From: Candidatus Methanophaga sp. GoMg3.2
Lineage (GTDB): Archaea > Halobacteriota > Syntropharchaeia > Alkanophagales > Methanospirareceae
Length of the DNA stretch: 6,885 nucleotides
NCBI GenBank assembly: GCA_013180565.1
Contig: QBUN01000403.1
Span: 1 to 6,885 of the forward strand
Reading direction: 5' to 3'
Below are positions 1 to 6,885 of this stretch, piece after piece. Under the pieces are notes generated by a model. The model did not search any database. It was not told the origin of the DNA and saw only the letters and a list, made by a program, of their open reading frames with translations. Positions within the stretch are counted from its first letter, which is position 1. The number at the start of each line of letters is the position of its first letter. The position numbers and the translations under genes are program-made.

Positions 1-334
1 CGATAGGCTTGTCCAGCTCGTCATCCCAGAAAATAGCGCCCATAATACATGCCTGCGCACAAAAACCGCAGCCTATACACTTATCCTTGTTCAATATCAC
101 TCCGCCACCTTTCCGTACCCTTAACGCATCCGTAGGACAGACCTTAGCACATGGCGGATACTCACATGCCCGACACACAACGACCACAAAACCGCGTTCT
201 ATGCCGCCTGCTGACCGCACCCTTATTGCAGACTTGTCAAAGCCAGCCCTACCTACTCTTCTTGTACATGCAAACATGCACTCCATACAGCCAATACATT
301 TGTTCACATCCAGTACCGCTAATTTCTTGACCAT
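1..334 (-). CDS. 4Fe-4S polyferredoxin, partial at its C-terminal end
   Basis: This is an electron-carrier protein of the HycB/CooF/DMSO-reductase-B-like ferredoxin type. The 111 visible residues hold three cysteine clusters: C13-x2-C-x2-C-x3-C23, C54-x2-C-x4-C-x3-C66 followed by Pro, and C86-x2-C-x2-C-x3-C96. The second cluster has the CRACEYPPC form typical of these multi-cluster subunits. Family members usually carry a fourth cluster, which would lie beyond the left edge because the reading frame is still open there. The ATG at 334-332 is the first start after an in-frame TAG at 340-338. A GGGAG ribosome-binding site at 350-346 sits 11 nt upstream. No signal peptide or membrane segment is visible, so it is probably cytoplasmic. 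Such proteins serve hydrogenases, CO dehydrogenases or aldehyde oxidoreductases; the partner gene is not in the window. The family type is fairly sure, the partner unknown. Confidence 0.88.
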   Translation of the reverse strand, partial: MVKKLAVLDVNKCIGCMECMFACTRRVGRAGFDKSAIRVRSAGGIERGFVVVVCRACEYPPCAKVCPTDALRVRKGGGVILNKDKCIGCGFCAQACIMGAIFWDDELDKPI

Positions 335-448: not shown

Positions 449-1213
449 TTACCTGAATATGTCTTCCTCCCGGGGGAACAGGACTTCTTTTATATCGCTT
501 TCGCAGCGCTTCAACTTCAATCCTCGCACAAGAACAACCGGTATGCCCTCTTTGAATTCACCCATTATAAGGTTCGCAGCCGCACATATCTCGTCCGCTA
601 TCGCTTCTTTTGTTACCATTGCGACCTTTCCAAACCGGTCCTCCTCGCCTCTCCTGTCCAGTAAAGCGGGAATGCCGGAAACACCCATGCACGTGCCGGT
701 TACGCCGTCTCGAAACGCTCGGCCGAAAGAATCAGAGAGCAGAACTGAAATTTCTACGCTACTACGCCGTTCTATCTCATCTTTGAGCAGATATGCACTC
801 CGTTGCGGGTCTTCGGGCAGCAACACCGCCTTGCCTTGCTCTACATTTGATTCGTCTACGCCCGCATTTGCACATACAAAGCCATGTTTGGTCTCTACAA
901 TGATATGATTCCGCATCTTTTTCACTACTTCTTTTGCCTCGTTGAGTACAAGTTGCGCGATTCTTGGGTCCTTCTCTGTATCTTTCGCCATCTGTTCCGC
1001 CACATCGCCCACTTCCACTTTGAGAAGGTCAACGACTCGGCCTTCGCTCTTTGATACTATTTTAGATGTGAATACGATTGCATCACCGTCTTCTAAACCA
1101 AGTTCTTTATCTTCTAATGCATTAAGGAATAAGGCGGTCAAATCATCGCCCTCTTTTATCTCCGGTAGGTTATCTATGCCTATTAGTTCCAGATGCTTCG
1201 CGAATTCCGGCAC
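449..1213 (-). CDS. cofE: Coenzyme F420-0:L-glutamate ligase (F420 gamma-glutamyl ligase)
   Basis: CofE adds L-glutamate residues to F420-0, using GTP, to finish coenzyme F420, the deazaflavin hydride carrier of methanogens and relatives. It acts in the cytoplasm. The 254 residues match the usual archaeal length of about 250. Family motifs are visible in order: LPEIKEGDDL (16-25), FTSKIVSKSEGR (48-59), HGFVCANAGVDESNV (110-124), LLPEDPQRSA (131-140), SDSFGRAFRDG (160-170), a GVSGI loop (177-181), RRGEEDRFGK (187-196), PVVLVRGL (225-232) and the end FPREEDIFR. D120 and D161 correspond to metal-binding aspartates known in the family; the residue after D161 is Ser where Thr is more usual. The start is GTG at 1213: an in-frame TGA lies at 1240-1238, there is no other start between, and a GGGGG ribosome-binding site lies at 1230-1226. 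It stands alone on the minus strand, divergent from the methyltransferase gene. Confidence 0.95.
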   Translation of the reverse strand: MPEFAKHLELIGIDNLPEIKEGDDLTALFLNALEDKELGLEDGDAIVFTSKIVSKSEGRVVDLLKVEVGDVAEQMAKDTEKDPRIAQLVLNEAKEVVKKMRNHIIVETKHGFVCANAGVDESNVEQGKAVLLPEDPQRSAYLLKDEIERRSSVEISVLLSDSFGRAFRDGVTGTCMGVSGIPALLDRRGEEDRFGKVAMVTKEAIADEICAAANLIMGEFKEGIPVVLVRGLKLKRCESDIKEVLFPREEDIFR

Positions 1214-1397: not shown

Positions 1398-2075
1398 ATG
1401 CGAAAAAATCAGATTTTTGAAGAACGGGCAGAAGAATATGACAAGTGGTTTGATGAAAACCCGTTTGCCTACAAGTCAGAAGTTCTAGCTTTAGGGAAGT
1501 TCATACCAAAAAACAGTAAAGGTTTGGAAGTAGGAGTAGGTACAGGGAGATTTGCAGTTCCTATGGGTATCCAAATGGGTGTGGAACCAGCAAGAGCGAT
1601 GGCAGATATTGCAAGAAAACGTGGAATAGAAGTATATGAAGCAAAAGCAGAGAAACTCCCTTTTGATAATGAGTCGTTCGACTTTATTTTGATGACCACA
1701 ACAATATGCTTTTTACAAAATCCTATGCTTGCACTCCAGGAATCAACAAGAGTTATTAAACCCGGCGGATATATTATAATCGGAATGATAGATAGTGATA
1801 GTTTTCTTGGCAAGGCATATGAATCAAAAAAGAAGGATAGTAAGTTTTATAGATATGCCCACTTTTACTCGGTTAGTCAGGTTTTGAAGTGGGTTAGAAA
1901 ATTAGGTTACTCTCATATCAAAATTTGTCAAACAATATTCAAAAACCCAGGAAAGATAGCAGCTATTGAGCCTGTTAAAGACGGTTCTGGAAGAGGAGGC
2001 TTTGTTGTCATTTCTGCACAAAAGGATGTACGTCTGGACTTTCATCCGGATCACGTTCGGAGATCGCTTTCATGA
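1398..2075 (+). CDS. Class I SAM-dependent methyltransferase (Methyltransf_11-like)
   Basis: It transfers a methyl group from S-adenosylmethionine to an unidentified acceptor; the family is too broad to name one. The 225-residue protein has motif I GLEVGVGTGRFAV at about 42-54, an acidic/AEKLPF stretch near 82-87 (motif II-III region), FDFILMTTTICFL near 92-104 (motif IV region) and RVIKPGGYIIIG near 122-133. The opening IFEERAEEYDKWFDENP is the usual N-terminus, which supports the ATG at 1398. The frame stays open back to a GTG at 1332, but that start lies inside the hairpin repeat and would add 22 residues unlike the family. The conserved fold ends about GGFVVISAQK (codon 2022-2024); the last 16 residues are read from DNA antisense to the DUF362 gene. 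Three sampled 60-nt blocks (1501, 1681, 1801) are about 36% G+C, lower than the neighbours, and it is the only plus-strand gene, so recent acquisition is plausible. Confidence 0.87.
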   Translation: MRKNQIFEERAEEYDKWFDENPFAYKSEVLALGKFIPKNSKGLEVGVGTGRFAVPMGIQMGVEPARAMADIARKRGIEVYEAKAEKLPFDNESFDFILMTTTICFLQNPMLALQESTRVIKPGGYIIIGMIDSDSFLGKAYESKKKDSKFYRYAHFYSVSQVLKWVRKLGYSHIKICQTIFKNPGKIAAIEPVKDGSGRGGFVVISAQKDVRLDFHPDHVRRSLS

Positions 2076-3237
2076 TTTGACTCGCTACAGGCGGACATCC
2101 GGAAACAAAAACACCCTGCTCTTTATGCTGTTCTGTGCAGTTACCGATGCAGAGCGTACCGCATGGGACCGACTCGTGCCCCTTCCCAATTGCAATAGTA
2201 ACATTCTTTTGCTCGGGGAAGTAGTTGAACATCTTATCACCGTATCGTTTCAGGAACATAAAAAGTGTGGACTGGCAGGCACTGCAGGACTGTTCATCAA
2301 GTATTGTAACACCGGGGAACCGTATCGATAAGTTCTCGGGAGGGCGTTCAAAAGGCGAGCAAAAATCATGCCATGTATCCGGATTCACCTGTATCCTGGA
2401 GATGTCTATCACGCCGTATCCTCGCTCAGCGCCAATACGCAGGTGTGGCACATCCTCTGCATTCAGCCCCATGAGTGCGCATGCAACCGCATCTGCTGCG
2501 AATGGATCAATCCCAAGCACAACAAGATCGAGTTTCTTCGCCTGGCCAGCACTTGGCCCCAGCCCTTCCATACCAGTAGTGCCATCAACAATCGCTAGAT
2601 GCGGACGAAGAACAGAGGACATATCAGCAATAGCGATATTAAGCGATCTGTCACTCACACCCTCTATTTGAGGCAGCATGTGGAGCTCGATTTTTGTACG
2701 GCGCCACAGGCATCCTTTCATATTCTTCACTGCGAGCGTAACGACTGTGTGCATGTGGGTTTTCATTACCGGGATTGAAACGACAACGTCGTACTCGACC
2801 ACTTCCGGGCAGACCGTAAGCGACTGTATTGCAACGCCGCCTTCGACAATCACATGAACGGGCTGCCGAACGTCCATATCTATCAAAGGACAGTTACGCT
2901 CACGAGCCACAGACGCAATACCAGTTGCTTCGAATGCGGCCATTGTTTTGACGCCGATTATTGGACTCTCACCAACAGCGACAGTTGCTCCTGCCTCGCG
3001 GAACAGATCAATTGCTGCCGCTACAACCTGGGGGTTGGTTGTAATACCCGATTCGGGACTGGCAATTCGGCCTGCATTCGGCTTTAAAAGAACTCGCTTG
3101 CCCTTGACCGCAGCGAGGTTGATTTGCGCGAGAACCGCCCTCGTGTTATCATATGCGCCCTCTCCCGTAGCGACGTGGACATGTGGATTAGACCAGTCAT
3201 CGCTAAATGGCGTTGGCAGTAGAGATTTTATATTCAT
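2008..3237 (-). CDS. DUF362 protein with cysteine-rich C-terminal region
   Basis: The protein belongs to the DUF362 family, which has no settled reaction and often sits beside iron-sulfur proteins. In 409 residues the DUF362 core is clear: LLKPNAG (50-56), GITTNPQVV (64-72), VGESPIIG (88-95), IPVMKTHMHTVVTLAVKNMKG (155-175), AIVDGTTGMEGLGPSAG (215-231) and GIDPFAADAVACALMGL (242-258). After about residue 315 comes a separate region with C318-x2-C321, C359-x3-C363-x3-C367 and C381 in GCPPV, which could bind a metal or an iron-sulfur cluster (inference). No signal peptide or membrane segment is seen. The ATG at 3237 has no strong ribosome-binding site, so a short or leaderless transcript is possible. 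The last residues, roughly DVHPFVQK, are encoded in the 68-nt overlap with the convergent methyltransferase gene. Sampled base composition is G+C-richer than the methyltransferase. The substrate is unknown. Confidence 0.88.
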   Translation of the reverse strand: MNIKSLLPTPFSDDWSNPHVHVATGEGAYDNTRAVLAQINLAAVKGKRVLLKPNAGRIASPESGITTNPQVVAAAIDLFREAGATVAVGESPIIGVKTMAAFEATGIASVARERNCPLIDMDVRQPVHVIVEGGVAIQSLTVCPEVVEYDVVVSIPVMKTHMHTVVTLAVKNMKGCLWRRTKIELHMLPQIEGVSDRSLNIAIADMSSVLRPHLAIVDGTTGMEGLGPSAGQAKKLDLVVLGIDPFAADAVACALMGLNAEDVPHLRIGAERGYGVIDISRIQVNPDTWHDFCSPFERPPENLSIRFPGVTILDEQSCSACQSTLFMFLKRYGDKMFNYFPEQKNVTIAIGKGHESVPCGTLCIGNCTEQHKEQGVFVSGCPPVASQIMKAISERDPDESPDVHPFVQK

Positions 3238-3528: not shown

Positions 3529-6246
3529 CTAAAACGCATAATCCAACTGAGCGTACAACTGCTTATCCTTGAAATACTTCAGCGACATCGCACTCGATGG
3601 GCAATAAGAAGCGCAACTTCCACAGCCTATACAGCCATCACCGACCTTCGCAACCTTCTTCACTCCGCTTACCACTGTTGCGACACCGAAAGTGACCACA
3701 GGCACCGTCTCCTCTGTCAGCGCGATCGCCTCAACTGGGCACACATCCACACACACACCGCACCCAACACATATCAGATCGTCAACTACTGAAGTCACCG
3801 CAGGTGTCTCAAGGAAATTCTTCGCCAGCAACACGTTAGCCCTAGACGCAGCCGCCGTGCTCATCGCTATGCACTCATCTATCATCGCAGGATAAACCGC
3901 AGAACCACAGATGAACACGCCCTCGTTTATCGTATCAACCGGCGTTAACACCATCTTCGGTCGTTCTTGCGCCTCCATAAAGAACCCATTTTTTAGTGGT
4001 ATATTGAACATCTTGCTCAATCGCTCATTCGCGTCTGCAGGCATCATTGGCGTGCTTAACACTATCTGGTCCGGCTTTATCTGTACCTCATCGTTGAATA
4101 TCACGTCGAACAGCGACAGAATACCATTACTAAATTCTGGCTGCTTCTTCTTGTCATATCTGAGGAATATCACACCCTTCTCTCTCGCATCTTTGTATAT
4201 CGCTTCCCACTTACCGTACGTCTTTATGTCCTGATATAACACGAATACGTTAGCGTCCGGGTTCTTCTCTTTCACTTTTAACGCACTATCCACCACTTCG
4301 ATGCTGGTAGACTTTGAATTAACTACTCCCTCGTTCGGTCCCATATCTTGAACAAACGCGATTGTCCCGGCATCTGATTTACCAGCCTTCCTGAATTCGC
4401 TCAGCGTTACTACCTTGTTATCAGAGCCATATCCCAAGTATCCCTCAGGCACGAATTCACGTGCACCGGTTGCGATTACACATGCGCCAAATTCTATCTC
4501 TTCATCCGTTCCATCTCCGACTATCCGCGCCTTAAACGAACCCGCTCTTCCTCTGACGTCCTCTTCTTTCGCGTTCGTATAGACGGTTATCCGCTCGTTA
4601 CTCTTTACTTTATCTACAAGTCCTGTTAAAACGTCAGAAGCTTTTTCACCACTCTGTAACTCCGTGAAATCCCTCAAACCGCCTCCAAGTTCAGGCTCAT
4701 TCTCCACCAGATATACTTCGTAGCCCGTATCGGCAATCCCAAGCGCCGCGGTCATTCCAGATACACCACCACCGATGACGAGTGCTTTTGGTGTCACAGG
4801 ATACCGCACAATCGGAATCTCATCAAGATACTTCGCTCGCTCTATTGCCATCCTTAGCGTATTTCCAGCCACGTCCGTCGCTTCCGCCTTATCATGCACC
4901 CAGGCACACTGTTCCCGTAAGTTCACGAACTCGAGTAGATACGGATTCAATCCAGCATTGGCACAGGCATCTCTGACTACATCCTCATATTCCCTCGGCG
5001 AGCAGCCCGCAAACACGATTCTGTTCAAGCCCTCGTCCACGATTCCACCTTCTATCGCTGACATCGCCTCTTTCATCGTCTTCGTCTCACTGTTCACCAG
5101 CTCTACGCCTTTCACGCCTTTCACTCGCTCCGCAACCGCAGGTATATCAACAGTCTGCCCCACTTCGCCTTCACAGTCACAGATAATAACGCCTATCTTT
5201 GGTGGCGCATCGCCCACTTCTATGTATTTCCTATCTTCCTGCCCTGGAATCGGCTCAGTGCGCTGCGAAAGAACCGCTGCTTTTAATGCCGCACCACTTG
5301 CCAGTCCAACGCTTTCACGCACTTTCATCGGTGCCGTTGCCGTTCCACAAGCGAAAATACCTGGAACACTAGTCTCTATCGGACTCGTGATACCGGTCTC
5401 AATATAGCCGTATTTATCCGTATTTACTCCCGTTATCTCTGCAAGTCTGCCTAAAGTCTTTGATGGTAGGAGGCCAACTGCAAGAACTACCATATCGAGT
5501 TTTAACTTATCTATCGTGCCTTTTTCTAGATTTTCGAACTTTACCGTCAGAGTGTCTCCCTCTGGTATCACCTCTGGTGTTCTTGACCTTATGTAATGCA
5601 CACCGTACTTATCCTTCAAATCCGCAACCAGCTCTTCATCCTTACCAAATACTCGTACATCCATGTAGAAGACGTAAACGTCAATATCCGGGAATCGCTC
5701 CTTTATGTCCCACACCTCTTTCGCGGTGTACGCACAACACGCCGTAGAGCATATCTCGTTCTCCTGGCATCGCGACCCCACACACTTGATGAATCCTATC
5801 CGCTTCACTTGCTTACCATCCGAAGGTCGCACCAGTTTGCCGCTATCACCAGCAGTCACAGTCTTGAGTATCCCCTCAAAATCCAACGAGGGTACAACAT
5901 CCGGACTTCCAAATCCATAACTCTTTGCTATCTCATCGAAGACATCATATCCCGGTGCCAACACCACGCTCTCCGCATCTATCTCCTTACCTGACGCTTT
6001 CAACTTGAAATTGCCCGCTGAGCCCGATAAACTCTCTAACTCGCTTGATAGCATCAGTTCTATGTTCGGATGATTACTCACCTTGGCAATGTATGGCGAT
6101 AATCCCATCTGGCATTCCGAGAGTTCAGCCATCTTTCCACCGAGTTCCGCATTCTTCTCTACTAAATAGACTTTATAGCCCGAGTTTGCAAGATCAAGAG
6201 CTGCTGTTATTCCTGCAACTCCGCCTCCAATAACTGCTATTCCCAT
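3529..6246 (-). CDS. HdrA-like double flavoprotein (tandem FAD halves plus 2x[4Fe-4S] ferredoxin tail)
   Basis: It is related to subunit A of heterodisulfide reductase and to QmoA/QmoB, cytoplasmic FAD/iron-sulfur proteins that route or bifurcate electrons. Order in 905 residues: (1) FAD half 1, GGGVAG at 7-12, with C155-VGSR, C160, C166 and C170-C171, ending in a GIFACG flavin motif near 296; (2) a domain like the N-terminus of HdrA, about 348-475, with ICDC (C356, C358), GCSPREYED (C415) and NLREQCAWVH (C447); (3) FAD half 2, GGGVSG at 492-497, ending in GVFICGSA near 776; (4) two ferredoxin motifs, C826/829/832/836 and C872/875/878/882. Half 2 has lost the CVGSR...CC cysteines (QDMGP and NSKSTS instead). 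Single HdrA proteins are near 650 residues, so this is a fusion. ATG 6246 is preferred, with AAGGTGG 7 nt upstream; GTG 6252 would add two residues. It directly follows hdrB. No MvhD- or FrhB-like domain is present. Confidence 0.9.
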   Translation of the reverse strand: MGIAVIGGGVAGITAALDLANSGYKVYLVEKNAELGGKMAELSECQMGLSPYIAKVSNHPNIELMLSSELESLSGSAGNFKLKASGKEIDAESVVLAPGYDVFDEIAKSYGFGSPDVVPSLDFEGILKTVTAGDSGKLVRPSDGKQVKRIGFIKCVGSRCQENEICSTACCAYTAKEVWDIKERFPDIDVYVFYMDVRVFGKDEELVADLKDKYGVHYIRSRTPEVIPEGDTLTVKFENLEKGTIDKLKLDMVVLAVGLLPSKTLGRLAEITGVNTDKYGYIETGITSPIETSVPGIFACGTATAPMKVRESVGLASGAALKAAVLSQRTEPIPGQEDRKYIEVGDAPPKIGVIICDCEGEVGQTVDIPAVAERVKGVKGVELVNSETKTMKEAMSAIEGGIVDEGLNRIVFAGCSPREYEDVVRDACANAGLNPYLLEFVNLREQCAWVHDKAEATDVAGNTLRMAIERAKYLDEIPIVRYPVTPKALVIGGGVSGMTAALGIADTGYEVYLVENEPELGGGLRDFTELQSGEKASDVLTGLVDKVKSNERITVYTNAKEEDVRGRAGSFKARIVGDGTDEEIEFGACVIATGAREFVPEGYLGYGSDNKVVTLSEFRKAGKSDAGTIAFVQDMGPNEGVVNSKSTSIEVVDSALKVKEKNPDANVFVLYQDIKTYGKWEAIYKDAREKGVIFLRYDKKKQPEFSNGILSLFDVIFNDEVQIKPDQIVLSTPMMPADANERLSKMFNIPLKNGFFMEAQERPKMVLTPVDTINEGVFICGSAVYPAMIDECIAMSTAAASRANVLLAKNFLETPAVTSVVDDLICVGCGVCVDVCPVEAIALTEETVPVVTFGVATVVSGVKKVAKVGDGCIGCGSCASYCPSSAMSLKYFKDKQLYAQLDYAF

Positions 6247-6248
6247 TT

Positions 6249-6885
6249 TCACACCACCTTCCCAAGTAACTCTTTTGTATCCACGGCATTTTTATCAAGT
6301 CCTAGTTCTTTCGCATCTATTCCCAGCGCGAGACCCAATAACTGCGTTATATACACAACCGGCATATCTATCTCAACATGGAGCGCTTTTTCTATATCCG
6401 CCTGCTTGCCATCCAACATCATGCCGCAGAGCGGGCATGCAAGCGCAATACAATCCGCACCGGCACTCTTTGCCGTGTCTAATATCTTCCGCGCCATCTC
6501 AAATGCTATATCACTCCGCGTCATCATAAGAGGTCCACCGCAACACAGCGACTTCATCTGACTGAAAGGGACTATCTCCCCGCCCATCAGCTCTATCAAC
6601 TTGTCCATCAACTCAGGGTCGTCAGGGTCATCAAAAGCAGTCTCCGGCGGTCTCCCAAGATAACAGCCATAATACGGCGCAACTTTCAGATTTAGCTTCT
6701 TCGAGATCTTACTTGACAATTCTTCCAGCCCTATGTCGTTTACAAAGACATCCAGTACATGCTTCGCATTTATCTTACCGTTATAGTCCAGTGAGCTATC
6801 TATCCCTTTCACTTTCGCACGCAGTTCATCATCGGCCTTCAACGCGATGTTACTCCGCTCTAAATTGTAATAGCAAATACTACAC
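6249..6885 (-). CDS. hdrB: CoB-CoM heterodisulfide reductase subunit B-like, N-terminus beyond the window
   Basis: HdrB is the cytoplasmic catalytic subunit that reduces CoM-S-S-CoB, or an analogous disulfide, on paired noncubane iron-sulfur clusters held by CCG domains. The frame is open to the right edge; 211 residues are visible. They begin with CSICYYNLERSN, the closing CxxC of the first CCG domain, as in the CxMCY segment of HdrB. The second CCG domain is complete: YYGCYLGRP (C74 of the visible part), CCGG (C114-C115) and CPLCGMMLDGKQ (C150, C153), with the family signature FDDPDDPELMD between. A TTG at 6842 could be misread as a start, but the motif upstream of it shows the gene is longer. 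Its TGA at 6251-6249 lies two nucleotides before the HdrA-like ATG. hdrC, if present, would be expected upstream, off the window. The true substrate may not be CoM-S-S-CoB, because HdrB paralogs serve other complexes. Confidence 0.92.
   Translation of the reverse strand, partial: CSICYYNLERSNIALKADDELRAKVKGIDSSLDYNGKINAKHVLDVFVNDIGLEELSSKISKKLNLKVAPYYGCYLGRPPETAFDDPDDPELMDKLIELMGGEIVPFSQMKSLCCGGPLMMTRSDIAFEMARKILDTAKSAGADCIALACPLCGMMLDGKQADIEKALHVEIDMPVVYITQLLGLALGIDAKELGLDKNAVDTKELLGKVV
6254..6260 (-). promoter_or_regulatory. Ribosome-binding site of the HdrA-like gene
   Basis: On the minus strand AAGGTGG lies inside the last codons of hdrB and ends 7 nt before the ATG at 6246. It is only 1 nt from the alternative GTG at 6252, so it favours the ATG. 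The arrangement suggests translational coupling with hdrB. Confidence 0.55.

Follow-up and report, generated by a model that had tools for sequence, protein, structure and literature searches.

The closest described relatives of the protein studied here are fused forms of HdrA, which the earlier note on this DNA had rightly said to be known in archaea. In the HdrA3/HdrA4 proteins of Chadwick et al. 2022 (PMC9012536) each chain has two HdrA cores, one with an N-terminal domain and one without it; the protein was proposed to be its own heterodimer, and the ANME-1 clusters that encode it have FdhB and lack FdhA. According to the same text, ANME-1 genomes have no membrane HdrDE and could depend on soluble HdrABC complexes. 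The type II HdrA of Lyu et al. 2025 (PMC12054007) has two thioredoxin-reductase domains and is found in clusters with mvhD, fdhB and hdrBC; K409 and E356 are given there as markers of bifurcating HdrA, and it is suggested that both halves of a type II protein could bifurcate. A third system, Elp-Hdr of Methanothermobacter marburgensis (PMC12350162), is alike in that HdrABC receives electrons from F420H2 through MvhD-like and FdhB-like proteins, and in that the arm of one HdrA is proposed to serve the FAD of the other HdrA; in the published model it delivers to FAD', HA4' and HA5' of that partner. From a legend in that paper together with the account of Chadwick et al., we read HA4 as the cluster of the thioredoxin-reductase domain.

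The window, by which we mean the whole stretch of 6,885 nucleotides that was analysed, encodes a protein that, judged from its sequence, is the fused HdrA of ANME-1 (Methanophagales). It was aligned with 144 relatives drawn from the best 120 of 6193 and the best 120 of 7925 proteins passing the cut-offs, 10 of the 154 fetched proteins (<850 or >1100 aa) having been dropped beforehand, so the counts given here describe near relatives and not the whole family. Equivalents of K409 and E356 were located by counting along the alignment with the PDB HdrA 5odc_A. The features are these:

6249..6884, minus strand: hdrB, its 5' end beyond the window, with a CCG domain (CoB_CoM_SS_B, 159.7 bits) and a stop that overlaps the GTG start of hdrA by 4 bases
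3529..6252, minus strand: open reading frame of the fused type II HdrA, 907 aa from GTG; an alternative ATG at 6246 gives 905 aa
5218..6252, minus strand: half 1 (aa 1-345), an armless HdrA flavin/thioredoxin-reductase core
6112..6114, minus strand: C47, an invariant cysteine (145/145 rows) within the HdrA Cys194/Cys197 region
5875..5877, minus strand: half-1 E126, equivalent to HdrA E356; E in 145/145 rows
5734..5784, minus strand: half-1 4Fe-4S motif C157, C168, C172 and C173; all four cysteines in 145/145 aligned rows
5719..5721, minus strand: half-1 K178, equivalent to the bifurcating-flavin lysine K409 of HdrA; K in 139/145 rows
4798..5205, minus strand: HdrA N-terminal domain ahead of half 2 (aa 350-485); query 351-578 aligned to 5odc_A 4-235
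3808..4797, minus strand: half 2 (aa 486-815), a flavin/thioredoxin-reductase core
4390..4392, minus strand: half-2 R621, at the position of the relatives' E356
4288..4350, minus strand: stripped half-2 stretch (aa 635-655), with D636, N645, T649 and S650 at the relatives' cysteines and D655 at the K409 lysine
3532..3807, minus strand: C-terminal ferredoxin domain (aa 816-907) with two 4Fe-4S motifs (Pfam Fer4)

The two thioredoxin-reductase domains in one chain place the protein in the type II (fused) class. It scores 568 bits against the NCBIfam HdrA2 model, under the full-length cut-off of 1100, and matches 5odc_A at E 4.6e-101. Both halves have the HdrA flavin/thioredoxin-reductase fold by sequence and by predicted fold (AlphaFold model with pLDDT 88.7 and pTM 0.88), so the second half is related to HdrA and is not a member of another family. 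The two GGGVxG flavin-binding motifs that the earlier note had seen in this chain lie at aa 9-14 (GGGVAG) and aa 494-499 (GGGVSG). Beyond what that note described, the arm domains, namely the N-terminal domain and the C-terminal ferredoxin, are attached to half 2 only, half 1 being without them; the inserted ferredoxin domain was found in neither half in the 5odc_A alignment and the aligned rows; and a lysine and a glutamate have been lost from half 2 along with the cysteines. Since published HdrA variants likewise vary in domain content (PMC12054007), we do not take the inserted ferredoxin domain to be an exclusive HdrA feature.

Half 1 retains its site. Its cluster cysteines lie in CVGSR (aa 157-161) and CSTACCAY (aa 168-175), and the residues at the putative bifurcating site of the window protein are K178 and E126 in half 1, with D655 and R621 at the half-2 counterparts. 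In the near clade, made up of the window protein and 58 relatives, half 1 has K in 58/59 rows and E in 59/59. C47 may not be the counterpart of Cys197, because it is kept in every row, even where the N-terminal-domain cysteines are gone.

Half 2 has been stripped of the corresponding residues. It reads QDMGP (aa 635-639) and NSKSTS (aa 645-650) at the places that match the half-1 motifs, and aa 628-664 hold no cysteine. The four half-2 cysteines of the relatives that keep them align with D636, N645, T649 and S650, so the pairing of the motifs made when the DNA was first described was correct. Across the alignment these four cysteines are all present in 79 of the 145 sequences and all absent in 66. 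Every one of the 79 keepers also holds the half-2 equivalents of the K409 lysine and the E356 glutamate; among the 66 losers the lysine is gone in 65 (kept in 1) and the glutamate in 58 (kept in 8). The half-2 core has 52 columns that are at least 97% conserved in keepers, and 39 of these persist in 90% or more of the losers, the greatest losses falling on the four cysteines, the lysine, Q797, the glutamate and A653. By the same test 42/45 such columns are kept in half 1 and 16/23 in the N-terminal domain. Q797 is kept by 11% of losers, its loss being chiefly in the near clade, and A653 by 18%. The pattern indicates that the half-2 loss is selective and not a matter of chance.

The loss is also conserved, a point on which the earlier note had asked for a check: the half-2 cysteines are gone in all 58 aligned relatives at 67% identity or more and in 35/35 examined genome copies. 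They are kept in 10 of the remaining 17 aligned rows below 960 aa. All 69 fused rows of at least 960 aa retain both sites, which shows that a protein can be fused without losing the half-2 site. In a set of 53 genomes from the order, at least 38 (a tally made by eye, some matches being cut by contig ends) have a match at 68% identity or more that takes in the bulk, or else a large part, of the fused protein; two others (G029 and G049) have fragments of it only. The 35 copies examined of these 38 have the half-2 lysine in one case (G013) and the glutamate in seven. The second copies in G022 and G023 have also lost the half-2 motif; the stretch around these copies, which are of the clade B kind defined below, has no hdrB or hdrC match, and an mvhD-like gene lies downstream. 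The copies in G036, G037 and G007 retain half-2 cysteines, lysine and glutamate alike. In two of these (L081 and L082, from G036 and G037) it is the opposite part that has been shed, the CxC of the N-terminal domain being lost and the half-2 cluster, K and E kept.

Loss of several cofactor residues might be read as mere decay of half 2, devoid of functional meaning, and the ratio dN/dS of the stripped stretch is indeed raised in two comparisons (0.52 against L013 and 0.40 against L014, with 0.11 against L002), which suggests that this stretch itself is less constrained. We consider such decay very improbable, however. Over the whole of half 2, dN/dS against L002, L013, L014 and L007 is 0.10-0.15 (0.04-0.12 in half 1; L001 was left out as too near the window for a useful ratio), values that point to purifying selection, and most of the conserved columns are kept. 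The eight C-terminal ferredoxin cysteines (828-884) are present in 145/145 aligned rows, including 66/66 losers, and the match is free of internal stops in 34 of the 38 near-clade genome copies among the matches listed. The reading of half 2 as a pseudogene is rejected on the strength of dN/dS and the retained columns.

The same retained features would suit a second arrangement, in which the half-2 FAD, having shed cluster and lysine, acts as an ordinary flavin for hydride transfer or relay and feeds the bifurcating flavin of half 1 in series. The flavin-binding glycines G494, G495, G496 and G499 do not vary in 76 aligned sequences, most conserved core columns of half 2 persist under purifying selection, and 60/66 losers have S, D, N or T in place of the lysine. 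We think this arrangement unlikely, as the published model has the arm deliver from iron-sulfur clusters and not from a second flavin (PMC12350162).

The losers divide into the near clade, here clade A (59 sequences with the window protein), and clade B (7 sequences); all of clade B and 33 of the 59 in clade A were placed in a tree, the other 26 being assigned by similarity. In a tree of the whole protein with the motif columns removed the trait needs two state changes, and trees of half 1 alone and half 2 alone need three and two. When all losers are constrained to one clade, the whole-protein data reject the constraint (p-AU 5.9e-11), half 1 speaks against it only marginally (0.048), and half 2 by itself is compatible with it (0.31). 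The sequences in the trees, 65 of the 145 in the first and 50 in the second, were chosen by hand to cover the spread, and the losing group was defined after the alignment had been seen. Two independent half-2 losses are the simplest reading of these trees. A single loss with recombination may be the history instead, and gene conversion between paralogs is possible because the two losing clades share similar replacement letters. All four N-terminal-domain cysteines are present in 7/7 clade B proteins. At loci L080/L106 and L083 a clade B-kind fused HdrA lies beside an mvhD-like gene and more hdrA-like matches, with no hdrBC in the stretch examined.

The fused HdrA is encoded beside HdrB and HdrC: hdrB lies in the window, and both genes are found in L001 and in relatives. 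L001, a contig of isolate GLR107 with 99.1% identity to the window across the entire window length, has the same fused hdrA gene after hdrC and hdrB. The order mvhD, fdhB/frhB-like, hdrC, hdrB, hdrA occurs in 19/19 near-clade genomes with enough upstream sequence and likewise in G036, G037 and G007, and the complete clusters examined have no open frame for a molybdopterin protein in the interval from mvhD to hdrA. On the other side of hdrA in the window, the next gene downstream (2008..3237, minus strand) encodes a DUF362 protein whose C-terminal tail is rich in cysteine; the F420-0:gamma-glutamyl ligase CofE (449..1213, minus strand) is also close to the Hdr genes, and a 4Fe-4S ferredoxin-like protein (2..334, minus strand) lies at the window edge. 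After the ferredoxin-like gene, L001 has a 589-aa open frame (7909-9678) that may encode an aldehyde ferredoxin oxidoreductase. At locus L013 the MvhD protein matches FlpD/MvhD, the HdrC protein (198 aa) matches HdrC and positions 4-95 of the 360 of QmoC about equally, and the FdhB-like protein (354 aa) is similar to beta chains of F420-dependent formate dehydrogenase (9t1s_M, E 7e-28). F420 would be the partner of the complex that we propose for the ANME-1 fused HdrA. A study of ethane oxidisers (PMC11493965) reports that in ANME-1 extracts neither CO oxidation nor formyl oxidation was coupled to the reduction of F420, reactions that concern other enzymes.

We propose, at a probability of roughly 0.55, that the type II HdrA of ANME-1 forms a pseudo-dimer within one chain, in which a single flavin does the electron splitting (or the merging, if the reaction runs in reverse) and the other half is a helper. 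Half 1 would hold the working flavin site, with K178, E126 and an adjacent 4Fe-4S cluster feeding HdrC and HdrB, while half 2 would supply the moving arm, formed by the N-terminal domain and the C-terminal ferredoxin, by which electrons would shuttle between the half-1 flavin and the MvhD/FdhB-like module. The flavin of half 2 would be served by no arm, since half 1 lacks one; the cluster and the bifurcation residues of half 2 would become dispensable and then be lost, leaving half 2 as a flavin-binding scaffold or a plain relay. If the arm-in-trans model is valid here, the loss is expected to fall on half 2 and to spare half 1. Assembly of the complex with its gene neighbours, delivery in trans within a fused HdrA and the direction of the reaction are suppositions of this proposal.

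The earlier note's view that a single chain could replace the dimer with two unlike flavin sites thus holds in so far as half 1 keeps its site and half 2 is stripped. Its asymmetric electron splitter is on weaker ground, both halves being without the inserted ferredoxin domain that would give electrons a low-potential way out. Either the C-terminal ferredoxin could take that role, or the complex may not bifurcate at all. In the latter case it would act simply as a relay, passing electrons in pairs by way of half 1 between the FdhB-like/MvhD module and CoM-S-S-CoB or the corresponding thiols. In known HdrA it is through the inserted domain that electrons leave to ferredoxin, and here the N-terminal-domain cluster is eroding as well: in the window C358, C360 and C417 are present and the fourth conserved cysteine has become M393; position 393 is Cys in 77/79 keepers as against 11% of losers; and in the near clade C393 is lost in 59/59 and C417 in 37/59. 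With the inserted domain absent and Cys393 gone from the window protein and all 58 near relatives, the ferredoxin branch, and bifurcation with it, may be missing. We nevertheless hold the plain relay to be doubtful, since half 1 in the near clade keeps both of the bifurcation markers named in PMC12054007 in 58/59 rows, and since making F420H2 from the coenzyme thiols alone would be strongly uphill, with the heterodisulfide at -145 mV.

Our preferred reading, one working flavin with a helper half, was set against the unfused cores of ANME-1 loci, which were read with local domain models. Of the 102 core-containing open frames, the comparison took in 20 fused and 60 single ones, leaving aside 12 that lie at the end of a stretch, 3 duplicates and 7 whose cores are broken or incomplete; L075 half 1 and L079 half 2, where the domain hits are broken, were classed by reading the hits. 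One left-out end fragment (L097:3-2243) has a doubtful partial match without the motif. Armless cores have the cluster in 15/15 unfused and 20/20 fused half-1 cases, and 17/20 fused half-2 cores are without it. Unfused arm-bearing cores have it throughout (14/14 without insert, 25/25 with insert and 5/5 with a long insert), 6 of the 14 without insert having G for K. An expectation that unfused tandem pairs decay alike was not borne out, as cluster and E are kept in 60/60 complete single cores. An armless partner is therefore not sufficient for decay, and the simple orphan model is weakened. At three loci (L085:3785-7375, L112:5751-9333 and L121:5137-8606) there are adjacent pairs of HdrA-like proteins of 571-600 aa, both arm-bearing and without the inserted ferredoxin, in which the cluster cysteines and E are kept and G replaces the K409 lysine. 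Only tentatively, then, do we put forward a broader account, in which the half-2 flavin was orphaned when the halves were fused and half 1 was deprived of its arm, ANME-1 lost cluster, lysine and glutamate twice independently and became equipped with a single-site bifurcase or confurcase, and HdrA dimers split electrons in trans. If it is true, the two unlike halves are evolutionary evidence for in-trans electron splitting by HdrA dimers.

Fused HdrA with complementary halves has been published (PMC9012536, PMC12054007), and the new part is the one-sided stripping of half 2. We found no statement of a joint loss of cluster, lysine and glutamate from half 2 in ANME-1 in the literature covered, which takes in main texts and few subscription journals; the text parts of PMC9012536, taken apart from its figures 8B and S8, make no mention of it. 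The prose of that paper places the N-terminal domain in the first half, whereas in the proteins read here it stands ahead of the second. Lyu et al. report that 75% of type II sequences conserve K409 and E356 (PMC12054007), whereas half 2 of this ANME-1 clade is without them; if only one flavin works, the published suggestion of two bifurcations per type II protein fails for this clade, and each HdrA chain would be expected to carry a single HdrBC. The HdrA-like subunit of Hyphomicrobium denitrificans (6tjr) differs in being a separate armless protein of 349 aa with no fused second half. Elp-Hdr (PMC12350162) differs in that its two full HdrA copies form a homodimer, with equal flavin sites and with inserted ferredoxin domains, and in that it contains ElpA. 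Set beside such dimers, in which transfer from arm to flavin is still unexplained, the ANME-1 protein would, if only one flavin works, be a ready single-site test of that transfer.
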